In this document: piece by piece, positions 1 to 10,089 of the stretch
Layout of the letters: each line of letters opens with the position of its first letter
Numbering within the stretch: position 1 is the first letter of the stretch
DNA from: Acidobacteriota bacterium
Lineage (GTDB): Bacteria > Acidobacteriota > JAAYUB01
Reading direction: 5' to 3'
NCBI GenBank assembly: GCA_012517875.1
Contig: JAAYUB010000006.1
Location: 1 to 43,987, forward strand
DNA: 43,987 bases
The notes under the pieces: model-generated
The model's database searches: none
What the model was told of the DNA's origin: nothing
Seen by the model: only the letters and a program-made list of their open reading frames with translations
Position numbers and translations under genes: made by a program

Positions 1-306
1 CGCACCCACTCCCAAGTCCGGCGCCGCCTTCGCCGCGCTCAGCCCGTCCTCCGGCGCCAGCTTCAGCGCCTGCAGCCCGTCCGGCGACAGCTTCGCGGCG
101 CTGACGCCTTCTTCACCGGCCGTCGGGGTGCGAGCGGCCGCCGCCTGCTGCCAGCCGAGATCGAAGGCGGCCGGGAACTTCTCCAACCGGTCGGGCTGGG
201 CGGCCTCGTCACGCGCCGGCGGCTGCCGGCGCACCGTCTGGGCGTCCGGGGTTCCTTCGGGCTCATCGGGAGAAACAGGCGGTATGCCGGCATCACCGAT
301 CTTCAT
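1..306 (-). CDS. Ala/Pro-rich repeat protein, C-terminus cut off by window edge
   Basis: An open frame runs off the left edge, so only the first 102 residues are visible. The start (MKIGDAG) was chosen because GGAGGGG lies a few bases upstream; an in-frame ATG four codons earlier (318) overlaps that site. The first half is polar and proline-rich. From about residue 66 the protein becomes a tandem repeat of 10-11 residues, roughly G-(V/L)-x-A-x-K-x-x-P-(D/E), seen as GVSAAKLSPD, GLQALKLAPED and GLSAAKAAPDL. There is no signal peptide, membrane segment or borosin-binding domain in the visible part. It is transcribed away from the borosin-like pair across a 135 bp gap; a TACAAT-like -10 sits at 344-339. 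I do not recognise the family. A role as substrate or partner of the methyltransferases is speculation. Confidence 0.5.
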   Translation of the reverse strand, partial: MKIGDAGIPPVSPDEPEGTPDAQTVRRQPPARDEAAQPDRLEKFPAAFDLGWQQAAAARTPTAGEEGVSAAKLSPDGLQALKLAPEDGLSAAKAAPDLGVGA

Positions 307-368
307 CTGCCCCTCCATGTGCAGTCAATATTGAGTGTATTGTACCACACCGCGACGCCGCGGATCGG

Positions 369-397
369 TTGCAATGCGCCGCCATCGGGGCTAGCAT
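369..397 (+). promoter_or_regulatory. Predicted sigma-70 promoter of the borosin-like operon
   Basis: TTGCAA (369-374), a 17 bp spacer and TAGCAT (392-397), about 45 bp upstream of the start codon at 442. The Shine-Dalgarno GGAGGG at 429-434 is 7 bp from that ATG. Both hexamers depart from consensus, so this is a moderate prediction. Confidence 0.45.
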
Positions 398-441
398 AAG
401 AGCGACTCCCTGCCTCACAACCCGAACCGGAGGGCGGACGG

Positions 442-1401
442 ATGAACCAGCGGCTGGCTGATTTTCTCATTGACCTGGCGGAGAACGCCGCTGTGCGGGC
501 GGCGTTCGAGCGAGATCCGGCCGGCGCCATGGCACAGGCCGGTTTGAGCGCCGCCGAGCAGGCCGCTGTCCGCAGCCGGGACCAGCGGCAGATCCGACTC
601 CTACTCAGCCGGGCGCCGGCCGGGCACCTGACGGTGGTGGGCGCCGGCATCCGGCCCTCGCACCTCACCCCGGAGATCCGCGACGCGATCACCGGCGCCG
701 ACCGGGTCTTTCATCAGCTGCCGCCGGAACTCGCCGCCGGCATCCAGCCGCTGAATCCCCGCATCGAGTCGCTGCTCGACCTCTACGCGTCGGACCGGTC
801 GCCGGGCGCAGTCACCGCCGCCATCGTGGAACGCCTACTGGCGCCGGCGCGGGCCGGCGACTCGGTGTGCGCCGTGTTTCACGGACACCCCGGAGTGCTC
901 TGCTACTCCGCCGGCGCCGCCATCCGGCAGGCCCGGCAGGAGGGGCTCGAGGCGGCGATGCTACCCGGCGTCTCGGCCGAGGATTGCCTCTATGCCGACC
1001 TGGGCATCGACCCCGCCACCCACGGCGCCCAGAGCTACGAGGCCACCGACTTCCTCGTCCACCGCCGGCGGTTCGATGTCCGCAGCCTGCTGCTGCTCTG
1101 GCAGGTGGGCGGCCTGGGCATCTCCGGCCGCCCCTTGCATCATCCCGACCACGGACTGGCCGTGCTGGCCGAGACACTCCGCGTCCACTACCCGCCGGAC
1201 CACCGCATCGCCGCCTATGAGGCGGCGGCGGACGATGTGTCGCCGCCGTCCGTCCGGTGGCTGACACTGGCCGAGTTGCCGGGCCAGGCGGTGTCGCCGT
1301 TCACCACTCTGTACGTGCCGCCGTTGGAGCGCCCCGTCGCCGATCCGGACGTTATCGCCCGGCTCCAGGCGGACGCCGACGCCCCGCGTGACCCCCAATG
1401 A
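442..1401 (+). CDS. Borosin-binding domain fused to a degenerate peptide N-methyltransferase domain
   Basis: 319 aa in two parts. Residues 3-55 (LADFLIDL, F22, P26, M30, AGLS, AVRSRD) match the helical borosin-binding domain of split-borosin precursors such as Shewanella SonA, a LigA-like fold. Residues 61-300 form a tetrapyrrole-methylase-type SAM methyltransferase of the SonM/OphMA group: VVGAGI near the start, HGHPGV at 147-152, GVSAEDCLYADLGIDP, YEATDFL and LLWQVG. Aligned without gaps to the next gene, the catalytic Arg and Tyr positions are P121 and T125; only Y115 is kept. This half is therefore probably inactive, perhaps a scaffold or dimer partner. Unlike fungal OphMA, the binding domain is N-terminal. 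No hydrophobic core peptide follows either domain; the C-terminus is acidic and Pro-rich. The stop overlaps the next start (ATGA). The homology is clear; the role is inferred. Confidence 0.8.
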   Translation: MNQRLADFLIDLAENAAVRAAFERDPAGAMAQAGLSAAEQAAVRSRDQRQIRLLLSRAPAGHLTVVGAGIRPSHLTPEIRDAITGADRVFHQLPPELAAGIQPLNPRIESLLDLYASDRSPGAVTAAIVERLLAPARAGDSVCAVFHGHPGVLCYSAGAAIRQARQEGLEAAMLPGVSAEDCLYADLGIDPATHGAQSYEATDFLVHRRRFDVRSLLLLWQVGGLGISGRPLHHPDHGLAVLAETLRVHYPPDHRIAAYEAAADDVSPPSVRWLTLAELPGQAVSPFTTLYVPPLERPVADPDVIARLQADADAPRDPQ

Positions 1402-2177
1402 GTGGCGGTTCGCTGGATGTCGTGGGCACCGGGATCCGGGCCGTCGCCCAGGTGACGGCCGAGGCCCGGCGCCGCATCGAGGCGGCCGATCTCGTCCTCT
1501 ACGCCACGGACACGGTGACCGCCCGCTGGATCGAGCGGCTGAATCCCCGCGCCGAGTCGCTGGACCGGCTCTACGCACCCGGCGAGCCCCGCCGGGTGAC
1601 CTACGAGCGGACCGTGGCCCGGATCCTCGAGGCGGTCCGGCAGGGACGGCGTGTGTGCGCGGCGTACTACGGGCATCCCGGCGTTTTCGTCTACGCCACC
1701 CACGCGTCGCTGCGGCTGGCGCGCGCCGAAGGGTACTCGGCGCGGATGCTGCCGGCGGTTTCGGCGTCCGACTCCCTGTTCGCCGACTTGGGCGTCGATC
1801 CGGGGCACCGGGGCTGCCAGAGCCACGAGGCCACCGACTTCCTCTCCCATCACACGGTGTTTGATCCGGCGGTGCCGCTGATCCTGTGGCAGGTGGGCAT
1901 CATCGGGGACTGGGGCTACGGCGGGCGCCCCAACCGCACGGGCCGGCGGATGCTGCTGGAGAAGCTCCTCCCCGCCTACGGGCCCGAGCACGAAGTCGTC
2001 CTGTACCAGGCCGCCCAGTACGCCGCCTGCCCCTTCCTCGTAGCCCGCTTTCCGCTGCGCCGGCTCGAGGCCGTGCCCGGCGACCCGTACTGCACGCTGT
2101 GCGTGCCGCCGACGGGCACCAGCCGGCCGGACCGCGGAGTCGCGGCGCGGCTGGGACTGACGTTACCGGAAGAGTGA
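1398..2177 (+). CDS. Borosin-type peptide alpha-N-methyltransferase (SonM/OphMA-like)
   Basis: 259 aa, close in length to stand-alone SonM. Family members use SAM to methylate backbone amides of a ribosomal precursor peptide. Visible hallmarks are VVGTGI at 8-13 (SAM-site loop), AAYYGHPGVF at 88-97, the LPAVSASDSLFADLGVDP stretch, HEATDFL and LILWQVG. The residues corresponding to the OphMA active-site Tyr66, Arg72 and Tyr76 are present as Y59, R65 and Y69, with the same 10- and 4-residue spacing, so this copy should be catalytically competent. It overlaps the upstream gene by four bases, which implies coupled translation and a likely hetero-complex. The two methyltransferase domains align without gaps around the active site, suggesting tandem duplication followed by loss of function in the first. 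No precursor with its own core is visible nearby. Confidence 0.85.
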   Translation: MSGGSLDVVGTGIRAVAQVTAEARRRIEAADLVLYATDTVTARWIERLNPRAESLDRLYAPGEPRRVTYERTVARILEAVRQGRRVCAAYYGHPGVFVYATHASLRLARAEGYSARMLPAVSASDSLFADLGVDPGHRGCQSHEATDFLSHHTVFDPAVPLILWQVGIIGDWGYGGRPNRTGRRMLLEKLLPAYGPEHEVVLYQAAQYAACPFLVARFPLRRLEAVPGDPYCTLCVPPTGTSRPDRGVAARLGLTLPEE

Positions 2178-2329: not shown

Positions 2330-3637
2330 TCAGCCGCGGGTCATCGAATCCAGAAAGTCCTTGTTGGACTCGGTCTTGCGCAGTTTGTCCGCCAGCAGCT
2401 CCATGGCTTCCACCGTGGACAGGGGGCTGAGCACCTTGCGCAGCACCCAGATCTTGTTCAGCTCCTCCTTTGACTGGAGCAGCTCCTCCTTGCGGGTGCC
2501 GGACTTGTTGATATCCATGGCTGGGAAGATGCGGCGCTCGACCAGCTTGCGGTCAAGGTTGATCTCCATGTTGCCGGTACCCTTGAACTCTTCGAAGATC
2601 ACGTCGTCCATGCGGCTGCCGGTGTCCACGAGCGCGGTGGCCATGATGGTCAGCGAGCCGCCCTCCTCGATGTTGCGCGCCGAGCCGAAGAAACGCTTCG
2701 GGCGCTGCAGGGCGTTGGAGTCGATACCGCCGGAAAGCACCTTGCCGCTGGGCGGTACGATGGAGTTGTAGGCGCGGGCCAGGCGGGTGATGGAGTCGAG
2801 CACGATCACCACGTCCTTGCCGTATTCGACGAGGCGCTTGGCCTTCTCGATGACCATCTCGGCGACCTGGACGTGCCGTGAGGCCGGCTCGTCGAACGTG
2901 GAGCTGACCACCTCGCCGTCGACCGAGCGGCGCATGTCGGTGACCTCCTCGGGGCGCTCATCGATGAGGAGCACGATCAGGTAGATCTCCGGATGGTTGG
3001 CGGTGATGGAGTTGGCGATGGACTGCATGAGCATGGTTTTACCGGTGCGGGGAGCGGCGACGATGAGGCCGCGCTGCCCCTTGCCGATGGGCGCCAGCAG
3101 GTCCAGCACCCGGCCGGTCAGGTTGTCCGGCACCGTCTCCAGTTTGATGCGCTTGTCGGGGTAAACGGGCGTCAGGTTGTCGAAGAAGATCTTGTTCCGC
3201 ACCTCGCTGGGATGCTCGAAGTTGATCGCCTCGACCTTGATGAGGGCGAAGTAGCGCTCCCCTTCCTTTGGGGGGCGGATCTGGCCCGAGATGGTGTCGC
3301 CGGTGCGCAGGTCGAATTTTCGGATCTGGGACGGCGACACGTAAATGTCGTCCGGGCCGGGCAGATAGTTGTAGTCGGGCGAGCGGAGGAAGCCGAAGCC
3401 GTCGGAGAGGATCTCCAGCACGCCTTCGGAGAAGATCAAGCCGCTCTTCTCGGTCTGCGCCTTCAGGATCTGGAAGATCAGTTCCTGCTTGCGCATGCCG
3501 GAGACGCCCAGGATGCCGAGGTCCTTGGCGATGCGGGTGAGCTCGCCGATGGACATCTCCTTCAGCACCGCGATATTGAATGCCTTCTCGTCGCTTTCCG
3601 TCTCCATCTCGTTTTCGTTGTAATCGATGTCGGACAT
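2330..3637 (-). CDS. rho: Transcription termination factor Rho
   Basis: 435 aa RNA-dependent hexameric helicase that releases RNA polymerase from untranslated transcripts. The N-terminal Rho_N segment ([14 protein letters not shown]) is followed by the cold-shock-like RNA-binding domain ([14 protein letters not shown]), then the RecA-like ATPase. That part carries a P-loop written AAPRTGKT, the [10 protein letters not shown] motif, [15 protein letters not shown] (Walker B) and the R loop around [21 protein letters not shown]. The P-loop has Ala where many homologs have Pro. The start is MSDIDYNE at 3637, with AGGAGG just upstream; an in-frame extension beyond it is not needed. It is the last gene of the tig-clpP-clpX-lon-engB-rho run, 10 bp after engB, and converges on the borosin-like genes. 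Confidence 0.97.
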
Positions 3638-3647
3638 GGGAACCTCC

Positions 3648-4244
3648 TTATATGTCCTGTGATTGTTCATTTCTGATGAAACGCTGCAGCCGCCCCAGCA
3701 ACTCCAGCCGGCCAAGCTCCGTCAGCGCGGAGAAAGGCAGGATGTCCCGGCCGGGGAACGCCGTCCGCAGCTCGCGCAGGCTGGCTGACCGGGCGTTGCC
3801 GGACAGCTTGTCGGCCTTTGTGGCCACAACCACGTACTCGGCCGACTGCGCCTCCAGCCACTCCCGCAGGGTCCGGTCCAGCGGCGAAAGCGCGTGGCGG
3901 ATGTCCACGAGCAGGATCACCAGCCGGCGCCGCGAATCGTCGGCGAAATACTCCCGGATCATCCGGTCCCAGGAGCGGCGCTCGGCTTCGGCTATCTTTG
4001 CGTAACCGTAACCGGGCAGATCCACCAGATAAAAAGAACCGTTGATCCTGAAATAATTGATCCCGCGAGTCTTGCCCGGGGTGCCGCTGACCTTGGCGAC
4101 GCCGCGCCGCTTCAGCAGCGTGTTGATCAGGCTCGACTTGCCCACGTTGGACCGGCCGACGACGGCGATCTCCGGGAGGCGCTCCCGCGGATAACCGGAC
4201 GCCGACCGCGCGCTGGTCACGAACTCGACCGCCGTGAATTTCAC
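3648..4244 (-). CDS. engB: Ribosome biogenesis GTPase EngB (YihA/YsxC)
   Basis: 198 aa, the usual length. The family is a circularly ordered TRAFAC GTPase needed for large-subunit assembly. GTP-binding motifs are visible in order: [12 protein letters not shown] (G1), the switch region around [21 protein letters not shown] (G3), TKADK (G4) and FSAL near the C-terminus. It begins with GTG 14 bp downstream of lon with only a weak GGGA site, so it probably depends on translation of the upstream gene. It lies between lon and rho in the same direction. Confidence 0.95.
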
Positions 4245-4258
4245 CCGTTGAATCCCGG

Positions 4259-6655
4259 TCAGTTGGCGATGTGCCCTTCCTTGACCTCACCGTCGATCGC
4301 GGCAGGGGCTTTTTTGTCAAGGGTCTGCAGGGGGCCGGGCAGCCGCTCGAGGGCCAGGCCCAGGACCTCGTCCATGGTCTCGACGAAATGGACCTCCAGC
4401 TCGTCCCGGACCTCCTCCGGGATTTCCTGAATGTCCTTGCGGTTGTCGGCGGGCAGCGCCACGTGCTTGATGCCCGCCCGATGCGCGGCCAGAATCTTTT
4501 CCTTCACGCCGCCGATGGGCAGCACCTGGCCGCGCAGGGTGATCTCGCCGGTCAGGGCCACGTCCCGGCGGACAGGGATCCCGGTCAGAGACGAGACAAT
4601 GGCGGTGGCCATGGTGATCCCCGCGCTGGGGCCGTCCTTGGGAATCGCCCCTTCGGGGATGTGCACGTGGATGTCTTCGTTCTTGTAGAATTCGGGATTG
4701 ATGTGGAAGGTCACCGCCCGCGAGCGCACGTAGCTCAACGCGGCGTGAGCCGACTCCTGCATCACTTCGCCGATCTTCCCCGTCAGGGTCAGCTTGCCGG
4801 TGCCCGGCATCCGGGTGACCTCGGTGAGCAGGATCTCGCCGCCCATATCGGTCCAGGCCATGCCGGTGGCCACGCCCACCTCGCTCTTCTCCTGCGACTT
4901 CTGCAGGCGGAAGCGGATGGGGCCGAGCAGCTTCTCCAGCAGCGGCGGGTCCACCGCCACCCGGTGGGAGCGGCCCTTGGAGAGGATCTCACGGACTACC
5001 TTGCGGCAGACGCGGCCGATCTCGCGCTCCAGGTTGCGCACGCCCGATTCGCGGGTGTAGTGGCGGATGATCCCCAGCAGCGCCTCGTCGGTGAAGACGA
5101 TCTGCCGCGCGGACAGTCCGCTGGCCTCGCGCTGCTTCCCGACGAGGAAGCGCTTGGCGATTTCCAGCTTCTCCCGCTCGGTGTAGCCGGAGATTTCCAG
5201 AATTTCCATCCGGTCCTGCAGCGGGCGCGGAATGGCGTGGAGCACGTTGGCCGTGCAGATGAACATGACCCGGCTCAGGTCGTACTCGGTGTCGATGAAG
5301 TGGTCCAGGAAGTGGGAGTTCTGTTCGGGATCGAGCACCTCGAGGAGCGCCGCCGACGGGTCGCCGCGGAAGTCCACGCTCATCTTGTCCACTTCGTCCA
5401 GCACGAACACGGGGTTCTGCGTGCCTGCCTTCTTCATCATCTGGATGATCTGGCCGGGGAAGGCGCCGATGTAGGTGCGCCGGTGGCCGCGGATCTCCGC
5501 CTCGTCACGGACGCCGCCCAGCGACAACCGCACGAACTGGCGACCCGTGGCGCGGGCGATGGAGCGCCCCAGCGATGTCTTGCCCACGCCGGGCGGGCCG
5601 ACGAAGCAGAGGATGCTGCCTTGGCTCTTGCGCGACATCTGGCGCACCGCCAGGTATTCGAGGATGCGCTCCTTGATCTTCTCCAACCCGTAGTGGTCGG
5701 CTTCCAGGATCTTCTCCGCCTTGCCGATGTCGCGGATCTCGCGCGACTTCTTGTTCCACGGCAGGCTCAGGAGCCAGTCCACGTAGTTGCGGGAGACCGT
5801 GGATTCGGCCGACATGGACGGCATCGCCTCGAGACGGCGGATTTCCTTCAGGACCTTGGCTTCGGCGTCCTGGGTCATGCCGGCCTTGGCCACCTTTTCC
5901 TTCAGCTCATCGATCTCGGACGTCTGCTGGTCCTCGCCGAGCTCCTTCTGGATGGCCCGGATCTTCTCGTGCAGATAGTACTCTTTCTGGGCCTTCTCCA
6001 TCTGCTCCCGGACCCGGCCCTGGATCGACTTGTCCAGCTTGAGCTTCTCGATCTCGAAGCGGATCAGCTCGATGATCTTCGCGAAGCGCTCCTCCGGGTG
6101 GTCGATCTCCAGCAGCTCCTGTTTCTCCTTGATGCCGATGGGGATGTTGCCGCTGATCGTGTCGGCGACCTTGTTGAGGTCGGGCCCCTTGATCACGCGG
6201 CTCATGGCGTCGGCGTTGAAACTGGGGTTGATCTTGACGTATTCGCTGAACACCTCGAGGAGTTGTTCGCGGATGGCCTCCGCCCGGCCGGGGCTCACCT
6301 GCTCCGGCTCCAGGAGTTCGGCCTCCACCATGAAGAAACCCGGATCGTGGGTGGTGGAGACGATCCGGCCCCGCTGCAGCCCCTCGACCAGCACCTTGAT
6401 GTTGCCGTCGGGCAGCTTCAGGTTCTGGATGATCAGGGCCATGGTGCCCACGGTGAAGATGTCGCCGGCCTGCGGCTCGTCGGTGGCCGGGTCCTTCTGG
6501 GTGGCCAGGAAAAGGTAGCGCTCGTTGCGCAGAGCGTACTCCAGCGCCTTGACCGACGACTCCCGGCCGATGATGAACGGGAACATGGTCTGGGGGAACA
6601 CGACCACGTCGCGGATGGGGATCAGGGGCAGCTTCATCATGCGGCTGGTGGCCAC
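4259..6655 (-). CDS. lon: ATP-dependent protease Lon
   Basis: 798 aa, full length. Lon degrades misfolded and short-lived regulatory proteins in the cytoplasm. Residues 1-200 are the LON substrate-binding domain ([13 protein letters not shown]), followed by a helical linker. The AAA+ module has [10 protein letters not shown] (Walker A), FVLDEVDKM (Walker B) and sensor/arginine-finger segments. The C-terminal serine-lysine protease domain has KDGPSAGIT with the nucleophile at about S677 and the partner lysine at about K720. The start is GTG at 6655, with GAGGAG nine bases upstream; an internal ATG (MMKLPL) is possible. It sits 13 bp after clpX in the tig-clpP-clpX-lon order known from proteobacteria and other phyla. 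Confidence 0.97.
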
Positions 6656-6668
6656 GGCGGACGACTCC

Positions 6669-7925
<1,257 letters not shown>

Positions 7926-7939
7926 CGTCGCGCTCCGGT

Positions 7940-8530
7940 TCAGAGTCCCTGTTTGGTGATGACCTTGTCGATCAGGCCGTAAGCCACTGCTTCGTCCGCA
8001 CCGATGATGTAGTCGCGCTCCACGTCGCGGAGGATCTTGTCCATGGGTTGCTTCGTGTGCCGGCACAGGATGTCGCAGGTGATTTCCTTGAGGCGGAGGA
8101 TCTCCTTGGCGTGGATGTCGATGTCGGTAGCCTGTCCGGACAGGCCGGACATGAACGGCTGGTGGATGAGGATGCGGCAGTTGGGCAGGGCGTACCGCTT
8201 GCCCGGGGCACCGGCGGCCAACAGCAGGGCGGCCATGCTTGCCGCCTGGCCGATGCAGATGGTCACCACGTCGGGCTTGATGAACTGGATCGTGTCGTAG
8301 ATGGCCAGCCCCGCCGTGATGGACCCGCCCGGTGAGTTGATGTAGAGGGAGATGTCCTTTTCGGGGTCCTCGGCCTGGAGGAACAGCATCTGGGCGATCA
8401 CCAGATTGGCGATCTCATCCGTCACGGGGGTGCCCAGGAAGATGATATTGTCCTTGAGCAGCCGCGAATAGATGTCGTACGCCCGTTCGCCCCGGTTGGT
8501 CTGTTCGACGACGATGGGAACCAGTGCCAC
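7940..8530 (-). CDS. clpP: ATP-dependent Clp protease proteolytic subunit ClpP
   Basis: 196 aa serine peptidase that forms the tetradecameric chamber of ClpXP. The catalytic triad is visible: Ser98 in GQAASMAA, His123 in LIHQPF and an Asp near residue 170 (RDVERD). GTG at 8530 was chosen because GGAGG lies 6 bp upstream; the TTG two codons earlier directly abuts that site and is unlikely. It is followed 14 bp later by clpX and preceded 75 bp earlier by tig, the conserved arrangement in which folding helper and degradation machine share an operon. Confidence 0.97.
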
Positions 8531-8605
8531 GGTCAACCTCCTGCGGTCGGGACCGGCGCCGGCGGCCGGCCATCAGATATTAGATGTCGGAACCGGCCGC
8601 GGAGT

Positions 8606-10030
8606 TTATTCCGCGGCTTCCTGAGTCTGGCCTTTTGCCTTGCCCCGGGACCTGGCCTTAGGCTTGGCCTCGGCTTGGGGGGCGTGGTCGTGGTCATGCG
8701 CGTGGTCGTGGCCGCAGCCGGGGCCGTGCACGTGCTCCGCCTCGGCCGGCGGTTCGGTGATCCGGGCGGCGGCGACAACCACCGCCAACGCCCGGCGCAG
8801 CTTCAGGCCGTTCTTGAGCCGGTTCAGCGCCTCTTCGTCGCGGATCATTTCCGCCTTCAGCGCCTCGGGCGCCTGGCCGCGGGCGGCGGCCACGCGGGCC
8901 ATCTCGGCCTCCACGTCCGCGTCGGTGATTGTGACACCTTCCTTCTCGGCGATCTTGTTCAGCACCATGGTCTCGCGGACCGCCCGCTGCAGGTTGGGCG
9001 CCTGTTCCGCCCGGATCGCCTGCCAGTCGAGTTTGCCCACGTCCGTGGCGCTCATGCCGCGCTGCATCAGGTCGTTGACCGCCGGCAGCGCGAAATCGGA
9101 GAAGGCGGCCTCGGTCAGGGTGTCCGGCACGGGGAAGTCGTAACCGGCCAGCAGGGCCTCGGTCACCCGGCGCTCCAGCTCGCGGCGGTTGTGGTCGGCC
9201 ACCGACTCACGGAGTTCCGCCTCGACGCGGGCGCGGAATTCGTCGAAGGTCTTGAAGTCGCCCATGGACTGGGCGAATGCGTCGTCCAGCGCCGGCAGCA
9301 CACGCTCCTTGATCTCCTGGACCGTCAGCCGGACGGTCGCGGTCTTGCCGGCCAGGCGGTGGTCGTGGTAGTCGGCGGGGAATTCGAGGTCGAATGTCCG
9401 CGTCTCGCCGACAGCCTGCCCCTCGGCCTTCAGGGCCACCAGCGAGTGCTTCAGGTTCTCCTCCACGAGCAGGTACATCCGTTCGTCCCTGACCGGCTCG
9501 GCCTGCCCGGCCACGGCGGCCTCGAACACGGCGGCGAGGAAGTCGCCCCGCCGCGCGGGCCGGCCCGTGACCTCCTGGAGCGACGCGCGGGCCTGGCGCC
9601 GCCGCTGGATCTCGTGCTCCACGAGCTGCGGGTCGAAGGCGGCGTCGCGGTGGGCGACCTCCAGACCCCGGTAATCCCGCAGCTCGAAATCGGGCAGCAC
9701 CTCGAAGGCCACCACGGCTTTGAGCGCGCCGCCGAAATCGTAATCGGACTCCACCACCTCCGGCGTGCTCACCGGCTTGAGGCCGGTCTCCTCGAGGGCC
9801 TTGGGCAGGGAGTCCTTCATCACCTGCTCCACCACTTCCTGGACGATGGCGGTCTTGAACCGCCGCTCCAGCAGGCCCACCGGGGCCCGACCCGGCCGGA
9901 AACCGGGCAGCACGGCGATCTTCTTCATGTCATCGATCACCTTCTGCCGGACCGCTTCCGTCTCATCGGGCGCGATTTCCAGATTCAGAACCTTGCGGCA
10001 TCCGCTGCTTTCACCCAACGTTACCTTCAC
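8606..10030 (-). CDS. tig: Trigger factor with a histidine-rich C-terminal tail
   Basis: 474 aa ribosome-bound chaperone and prolyl isomerase. The N-terminal ribosome-binding domain carries the signature GFRPGRAP at about residue 43, the PPIase domain lies in the middle and the helical chaperone domain fills the second half. The start is GTG at 10030 (VKVTLGES), with GGAAGG 6-7 bp upstream. The oddity is the last 45 residues or so. After the normal chaperone domain comes HVHGPGCGHDHAHDHDH, then a basic K/R/A-rich end. Such a His-rich tail is typical of SlyD-type proteins that bind nickel or zinc, not of ordinary trigger factor, so metal binding is plausible. It heads the clpP-clpX-lon run and follows a tRNA-Leu gene. 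Confidence 0.96.
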   Translation of the reverse strand: MKVTLGESSGCRKVLNLEIAPDETEAVRQKVIDDMKKIAVLPGFRPGRAPVGLLERRFKTAIVQEVVEQVMKDSLPKALEETGLKPVSTPEVVESDYDFGGALKAVVAFEVLPDFELRDYRGLEVAHRDAAFDPQLVEHEIQRRRQARASLQEVTGRPARRGDFLAAVFEAAVAGQAEPVRDERMYLLVEENLKHSLVALKAEGQAVGETRTFDLEFPADYHDHRLAGKTATVRLTVQEIKERVLPALDDAFAQSMGDFKTFDEFRARVEAELRESVADHNRRELERRVTEALLAGYDFPVPDTLTEAAFSDFALPAVNDLMQRGMSATDVGKLDWQAIRAEQAPNLQRAVRETMVLNKIAEKEGVTITDADVEAEMARVAAARGQAPEALKAEMIRDEEALNRLKNGLKLRRALAVVVAAARITEPPAEAEHVHGPGCGHDHAHDHDHAPQAEAKPKARSRGKAKGQTQEAAE

Positions 10031-10089
10031 GTGCGACCTTCCTTTCGATAGGGTGTGGAATCCGTCATGGCGGGAACGGACCAAAAATT

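Follow-up and report, generated by a model that had tools for sequence, protein, structure and literature searches.

We uncovered, at the left end of an acidobacterial contig, a locus that almost certainly belongs to the borosin family and that is reasonably likely, taken as a whole, to be a split-borosin system of unusual build: a borosin-binding domain (BBD) joined to a catalytically dead enzyme acting as adaptor, intact paralogous enzymes, and a separate precursor composed of tandem repeats. The window, i.e., the whole stretch of DNA analyzed, comprises 43,987 nucleotides of contig JAAYUB010000006.1 (C6) of the Acidobacteriota assembly GCA_012517875.1, and its features are given in Table 1.

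Table 1. Features of the borosin locus in the window (positions are those of the window).
Feature	Position	Strand	Remark
Candidate precursor, 5′ part: leader and first tandem repeats	1–318	−	Runs off the contig edge
66-bp repeat pair (DGLQALKLAPE/DGLSAAKAAPD), the assembly break	16–81	−	Identical to C130:1–66
Intergenic region between divergent candidate precursor and MT1	319–441	.	Kept in relatives
Shine–Dalgarno-like GGAGGG of MT1	429–434		Inside the 319–441 intergenic region
MT1: BBD in front of degenerate SonM/OphMA-type domain (putative pseudoenzyme)	442–1401	+	319 aa
BBD, residues 3–56 of MT1	448–609	+	Five predicted helices
MT1 methyltransferase-like domain, residues 61–312	622–1377	+	
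Lost catalytic/lock positions of MT1: P121, T125, H147, L153	802–900	+	
MT2: intact SonM-like enzyme	1398–2177	+	259 aa; start overlaps MT1 stop (ATGA)
rho, conserved right-hand neighbor, boundary of the cluster	2330–3715	−	Same neighbor in L022

The window begins at base 1 of C6 and the locus extends beyond it: a minus-strand ORF of tandem repeats leaves the window at that base, and its 3′ part lies on contig C130 (C130:1–225; locus L004). Because the ends of C6 and C130 overlap by 66 exact bases (window 16–81), the two were joined as one locus, which brings in a third methyltransferase, MT3 (C130:247–1029, minus strand), with its residues intact. In the same-genus relatives G001 (contig 26) and G002 (contig 167; the locus L026 is this same contig) the entire locus is contiguous, in the order PilZ gene, MT3 (+), repeat gene (−), MT1 (+), MT2 (+) and rho (−), and the same block is present in L025, from a MAG labeled as Planctomycetota. 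That label probably stems from an error in binning or naming, because the flanks of L025 match the acidobacterial genus. Three related genomes retain both MT1 and MT2 at 91–95% identity, and hence the arrangement is far beyond chance. An earlier note on this DNA had described a two-gene system; its two ORFs and their four-base overlap are indeed there, with the stop of MT1 and the start of MT2 sharing an ATGA at 1398–1401 that is retained in the relatives, but the contiguous loci of these relatives indicate that MT3 and the divergent repeat-protein gene belong to the system as well. In G003, a member of the same family, lon, engB and rho are found without the cluster beside rho. To the right of the cluster, window positions 2330–10084 hold the minus-strand housekeeping genes rho, engB, lon, clpX, clpP and tig, none of them a recognizable tailoring enzyme. 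A search of viral contigs recovered no relative.

By sequence profile and predicted fold, the N-terminal domain of MT1 is a BBD, in close agreement with the earlier note, which had placed a SonA-like BBD at residues 3–55 and had proposed the corresponding HMM search. A profile of residues 1–60 of MT1 and its relatives matches the SonA precursors (7ltc_B and others) over residues 3–54 with an E-value of 9e-5; the Pfam LigA model (PF07746) matches residues 6–50 with 26.6 bits, just above its cut-off of 25.3, and the crystallized SonA chains are themselves deposited as “LigA domain-containing”. The AlphaFold2 model of MT1 (mean pLDDT 87.8) displays helices at residues 3–14, 16–24, 26–32, 37–45 and 48–56, followed by the enzyme fold; the BBD of SonA is likewise a five-helix bundle (residues 1–53; PMC8429565), and the structural match on which the earlier note had staked its reading is thus seen in the model. 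A linker of about 5 residues connects the BBD to the enzyme domain. Unlike the situation in a LigA dioxygenase, a LigB catalytic partner is absent from MT1 and from the neighbors examined; unlike in types 0 (a core) and XI (a domain of unknown function), MT1 has no core-like stretch at its N-terminus, and a hydrophobic core-like tail follows the enzyme domain in none of MT1, MT2 and MT3. Each of the window’s own genome (G000), G001 and G002 has one significant BBD, which in G000 is that of MT1, and neither a free-standing BBD nor a SonA-like precursor was found elsewhere in these three genomes. Set against the published types, the BBD that marks a type IV split borosin is present, on MT1, and BBD and core do not share one small precursor peptide here; the joining of BBD and methyltransferase domain on one polypeptide that marks Class 2 is present too, with the domain degenerate.

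The best candidate for the substrate is the product of the repeat gene, which lacks a BBD and whose connection to the enzymes is one of position: in all relatives the gene lies between MT3 and MT1, divergent from the latter. Complete copies (L022:5471–6217(−) and L023:2191–3129(−)) and that of L025 code for proteins of 238 (L022, L025) or 302 (L023) residues. These comprise a nearly invariant 76-residue leader, with 1 variable residue, and units spaced by 10 or 11 residues with the consensus G-(L/V)-x-A-x-(K/L)-(L/A)-(A/S)-P-(D/E), numbering 12 in L022, 12 in L025 and 18 in L023, although these copy numbers may be wrong or the contigs chimeric, because the arrays are assembled and L025 and L023 show a step in identity. 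At this step, located at the array (L025 about 2300–2550), the identity of the two rises from about 88% to above 99%, a breakpoint that might be explained either by recombination within the array or by chimeric assembly of a contig. In the window the likely start codon is the second ATG, at 306, the first being at 318, and a Shine–Dalgarno-like GGAGGGG is present at 316–310. The codon-position test fits the repeat frame and one overlapping antisense frame alike, the wobble positions being shared, and the strand assignment given here is favored because of the Shine–Dalgarno-like site and the conserved leader. AlphaFold2 renders the repeat protein as a string of short helices with a mean pLDDT of 46.

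We regard it as fairly probable that this repeat protein is the substrate of the enzymes. A reading in which the enzymes are a borosin set, with their substrate encoded elsewhere or being another cellular protein, is unlikely, though it has to be taken seriously: the repeat gene is tied to the enzymes by position alone, its product has no match above cut-off in the family libraries, its repeats are charged and, because the G000 assembly is fragmented (182 contigs), another precursor gene could be missed. The cores of known borosins are mostly hydrophobic, and the K/D/P-containing repeats found here differ from them. What speaks for the repeat protein over such a substrate is the constant place of its gene in every relative, its occurrence among 60 related genomes only in the 3 with the cluster, plus 1 weak match, and the above-noted lack of any other BBD-bearing precursor in G000–G002.

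The enzyme domain fused to this BBD is very probably inactive, judging from its residues. In an alignment with SonM, MT1 displays P121 in place of R67, T125 in place of Y71, H147 in place of Y93 and L153 in place of F99, and the same P, T, H and L recur in all four genomes with MT1; R67, Y71 and Y93 are kept in nearly all other borosin enzymes (the best 80 related loci in GTDB genomes, together with fetched relatives). In SonM, the R67A mutant retains only traces of activity, R67K and Y71F each lose activity by about 100-fold, and F99 and W166 constitute the bottom lock (PMC8429565). MT2, which the earlier note had rightly taken for an intact stand-alone enzyme, keeps the equivalents of Y58, R67, Y71, Y93, F99, W166 and Q167, and MT3 also keeps those of Y58, R67, Y71 and Y93, as well as F99 and W166 (SonM numbering). 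With MT1 very probably inactive, what the locus holds would therefore be a BBD-pseudoenzyme alongside intact enzymes, and not two enzymes that both work, and we consider it likely that MT1 is a non-catalytic adaptor.

Two other interpretations of MT1 have to be weighed against this. MT1 might be a BBD-methyltransferase that is active and self-sufficient with its altered residues, MT2 and MT3 being independent of it, but this is improbable: MT1 does keep the equivalents of Y58, E146, W166 and Q167 and the GHPGV motif, it is under purifying selection, and L083 offers an example of a BBD-fused enzyme with intact residues, yet the R67 and Y71 required in SonM are gone, and Y93 and F99 changed, in every one of the four genomes. 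We find it equally improbable that MT1 is a decaying relic, with MT2 and MT3 being ordinary homodimers that recognize the repeat protein without a BBD. The dN/dS of MT1 is 0.19–0.24 in the comparisons with enough changes, which indicates purifying selection, its BBD part shows 2 nonsynonymous versus 10–12 synonymous changes (window versus relatives), its ORF and the ATGA overlap are intact in the relatives, and no BBD other than its own was found in the genome; these observations outweigh the loss of four residues, the long branch of MT1 and the completeness of MT2 and MT3, with which a relic would be consistent. The substitutions in MT1 do not resemble those of a gene in decay. The likelihoods that we attach to the rival readings partly overlap and are not to be summed as though the readings excluded one another.

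Sequence comparisons, joined for MT1 by a structure comparison, indicate that MT1, MT2 and MT3 are homologous to the borosin α-N-methyltransferases, which upholds the SonM/OphMA-type assignment that the earlier note had given to the C-terminal part of the first ORF and to the second. The best PDB matches of the C-terminal part of MT1 are SonM and OphMA (E 1e-38, compared to 0.12 for tetrapyrrole methylases), as are those of the whole of MT2 (E 3e-51, compared to 1.5e-4), while the best 50 PDB matches of the MT1 model in Foldseek are all SonM/OphMA-type and its structural alignment with SonM has about 35% identity. The MT3 proteins of the relatives score 418–421 bits against a borosin enzyme profile, like MT2. 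In a quick tree, which permits a moderate claim, MT2 and MT3 are sisters (SH-aLRT 85), and MT1 stands apart from the degenerate domains sampled, on a long branch of 1.25 changes per site. The Pfam names, TP_methylase (matching residues 63–261 of MT1 and also MT2) and LigA, could be taken to mean that these are tetrapyrrole (cobalamin/siroheme) methylases with a chance LigA match, an assignment that we rejected as hardly credible: all NCBIfam tetrapyrrole equivalogs score far below their cut-offs (top score 37 bits versus a cut-off of 525), SonM/OphMA lead the PDB matches, in sequence and in fold, by more than 30 orders of magnitude in E-value, and the SonA precursors carry the LigA label themselves. 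The grouping with cobalamin/siroheme methylases that the earlier note had named as fatal to its reading is therefore not what profile scores, PDB matches and Foldseek matches indicate.

The split systems, SonM/SonA among them, bind their substrate via a BBD located on the precursor, and the borosin methyltransferases characterized up to 2021 were all reported as homodimers (PMC8429565). Here, a hetero-oligomeric methylation machine, as the earlier note had supposed, is plausible, and the case for it has gained in strength. The locus would read MT3 >, < repeat precursor, MT1 (BBD and dead enzyme) >, MT2 >; MT1 and MT2 would be made together from their overlapping genes and might form a heterodimer via a back-to-back interface as in the SonM dimer. 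MT1 would contribute a structural half and a single BBD as the docking clasp that is normally brought by the precursor, and the MT2 active site would methylate backbone amides within the 10/11-residue repeats of the separate, BBD-free precursor. MT3 could be a second catalytic dimer acting on the same substrate or could borrow MT1 as well. In its most specific form, an obligate heteromer in which the dead paralog with the only BBD recruits the BBD-free repeat protein for backbone methylation by the intact paralogs, so that the product would be a protein N-methylated at multiple sites in the pattern of its repeats and not a short peptide, this is a tentative proposal to which we give slightly less than an even chance. 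Against the adaptor picture, the repeat gene runs opposite to the enzyme genes, and MT2 and MT3 could be working alone. With the BBD moved onto a non-catalytic paralog, recognition would be uncoupled from catalysis, which would point to adaptors being able to steer backbone N-methylation toward sequences that lack a BBD, a property of value in the engineering of N-methylated peptides; thanks to the tandem repeats, mass spectrometry could read out the substrate rule directly. Even without an adaptor, the locus would remain an unusual borosin cluster of a kind that is rarely found.

Our survey of related loci also points to further variations on the borosin theme. Repeat-bearing BBD precursors occur in two other loci: in L120:4515–12928, from the acidobacterial genome G317, a single region encodes three borosin enzymes together with a divergent BBD precursor for each, and one of these precursors has AIKAKT-type tandem repeats and is divergent from its enzyme; in L063:7072–8001 a myxobacterial BBD precursor of 309 residues with many VVYAAG repeats adjoins an intact enzyme. 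Tandem pairs of BBD precursors with core-like valine-rich ends are seen in Rhizobium and Rhodoblastus (L037:7359–7865 and L039:7728–8240). Borosin enzymes are also encoded in MAGs of Thermoplasmata archaea (L028, L033, L035, L042 and L049), where they form one clade with a support of 98 and where a BBD gene was detected upstream in four of the five loci.

BBD-methyltransferase fusions are rare. Most of the best 80 related loci have a separate SonA-like BBD peptide adjoining the enzyme, and among these 80 a BBD was detected at the front of an enzyme ORF only in the window’s genus and in L083 (Planctomycetales). A search of 396 Acidobacteriota genomes returned a full-length match to the fusion only in the window’s genus, and one of 392 genomes of L083’s phylum only L083 itself. 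In L083:6564–8999 a 470-residue protein, with a Thr/Pro/Gly-rich C-terminal stretch, a core-like NIPVVVVIIG end and no detected BBD, precedes an intact borosin enzyme that carries a BBD at its N-terminus. L083 resembles the window’s locus in having the BBD at the enzyme N-terminus next to a gene for a BBD-free protein with a core-like C-terminus, and represents a case, parallel to that of the window, in which BBD and core have come apart independently; it differs in its intact enzyme residues, in its VVVVIIG end instead of tandem repeats, and in that no second enzyme is seen, the contig ending shortly after the fusion.

Other loci, too, combine an intact borosin enzyme with a degenerate copy, adjacent or fused, that has lost R67/Y71, either in one ORF (L045:7890–9626 and L053:8223–9770) or in two (L078:6278–8019, L068:1463–3024 and L119:1794–3316), and this heteromeric or pseudo-duplicated layout recurs in Gemmatimonadota, Acidobacteriota and others. 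Unlike in the window’s locus, the degenerate copy is second there and lacks a BBD, the precursor is a SonA-like BBD peptide (ending in a -PPGC-hydrophobic tail in L045, L053 and L078), and in the tree the degenerate copies that were sampled do not group with MT1.

Among the characterized systems, the type IV split borosin SonM/SonA of Shewanella oneidensis (PMC8429565) shares with our locus the SonM-type enzymes, whose residues are intact in MT2 and MT3, and the five-helix BBD, which in MT1 is homologous to SonA residues 2–53. It differs in that the BBD here sits on a degenerate enzyme and not on the precursor, in the presence of three enzyme paralogs, and in the candidate precursor having tandem repeats and no BBD. 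The fungal fused borosins OphMA and dbOphMA (types I–III) and those of types 0 and XI have a homologous enzyme domain, whereas no core is present on the enzyme polypeptide here. Besides borosin types 0–XI, PMC11395268 describes Class 2, which the legend to its Figure 1 defines as enzyme and BBD on one protein with the core on another: as there, our BBD is joined to a methyltransferase domain, and the core may be on a separate protein, the repeat protein being the candidate by position, but in this comparison of domain content the joined domain here is degenerate and accompanied by intact paralogs. In the sources compared here, PMC11395268 and PMC8429565 among them, no degenerate BBD-bearing paralog is mentioned, although an earlier account of this exact layout may exist in the papers defining types V–X and 0. 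Of the distinct architecture that the earlier note had claimed, the fusion alone is not new, because Class 2 (PMC11395268) is published and L083 provides a further example; the element that does look new is that the BBD sits on a probably dead paralog accompanied by intact ones.
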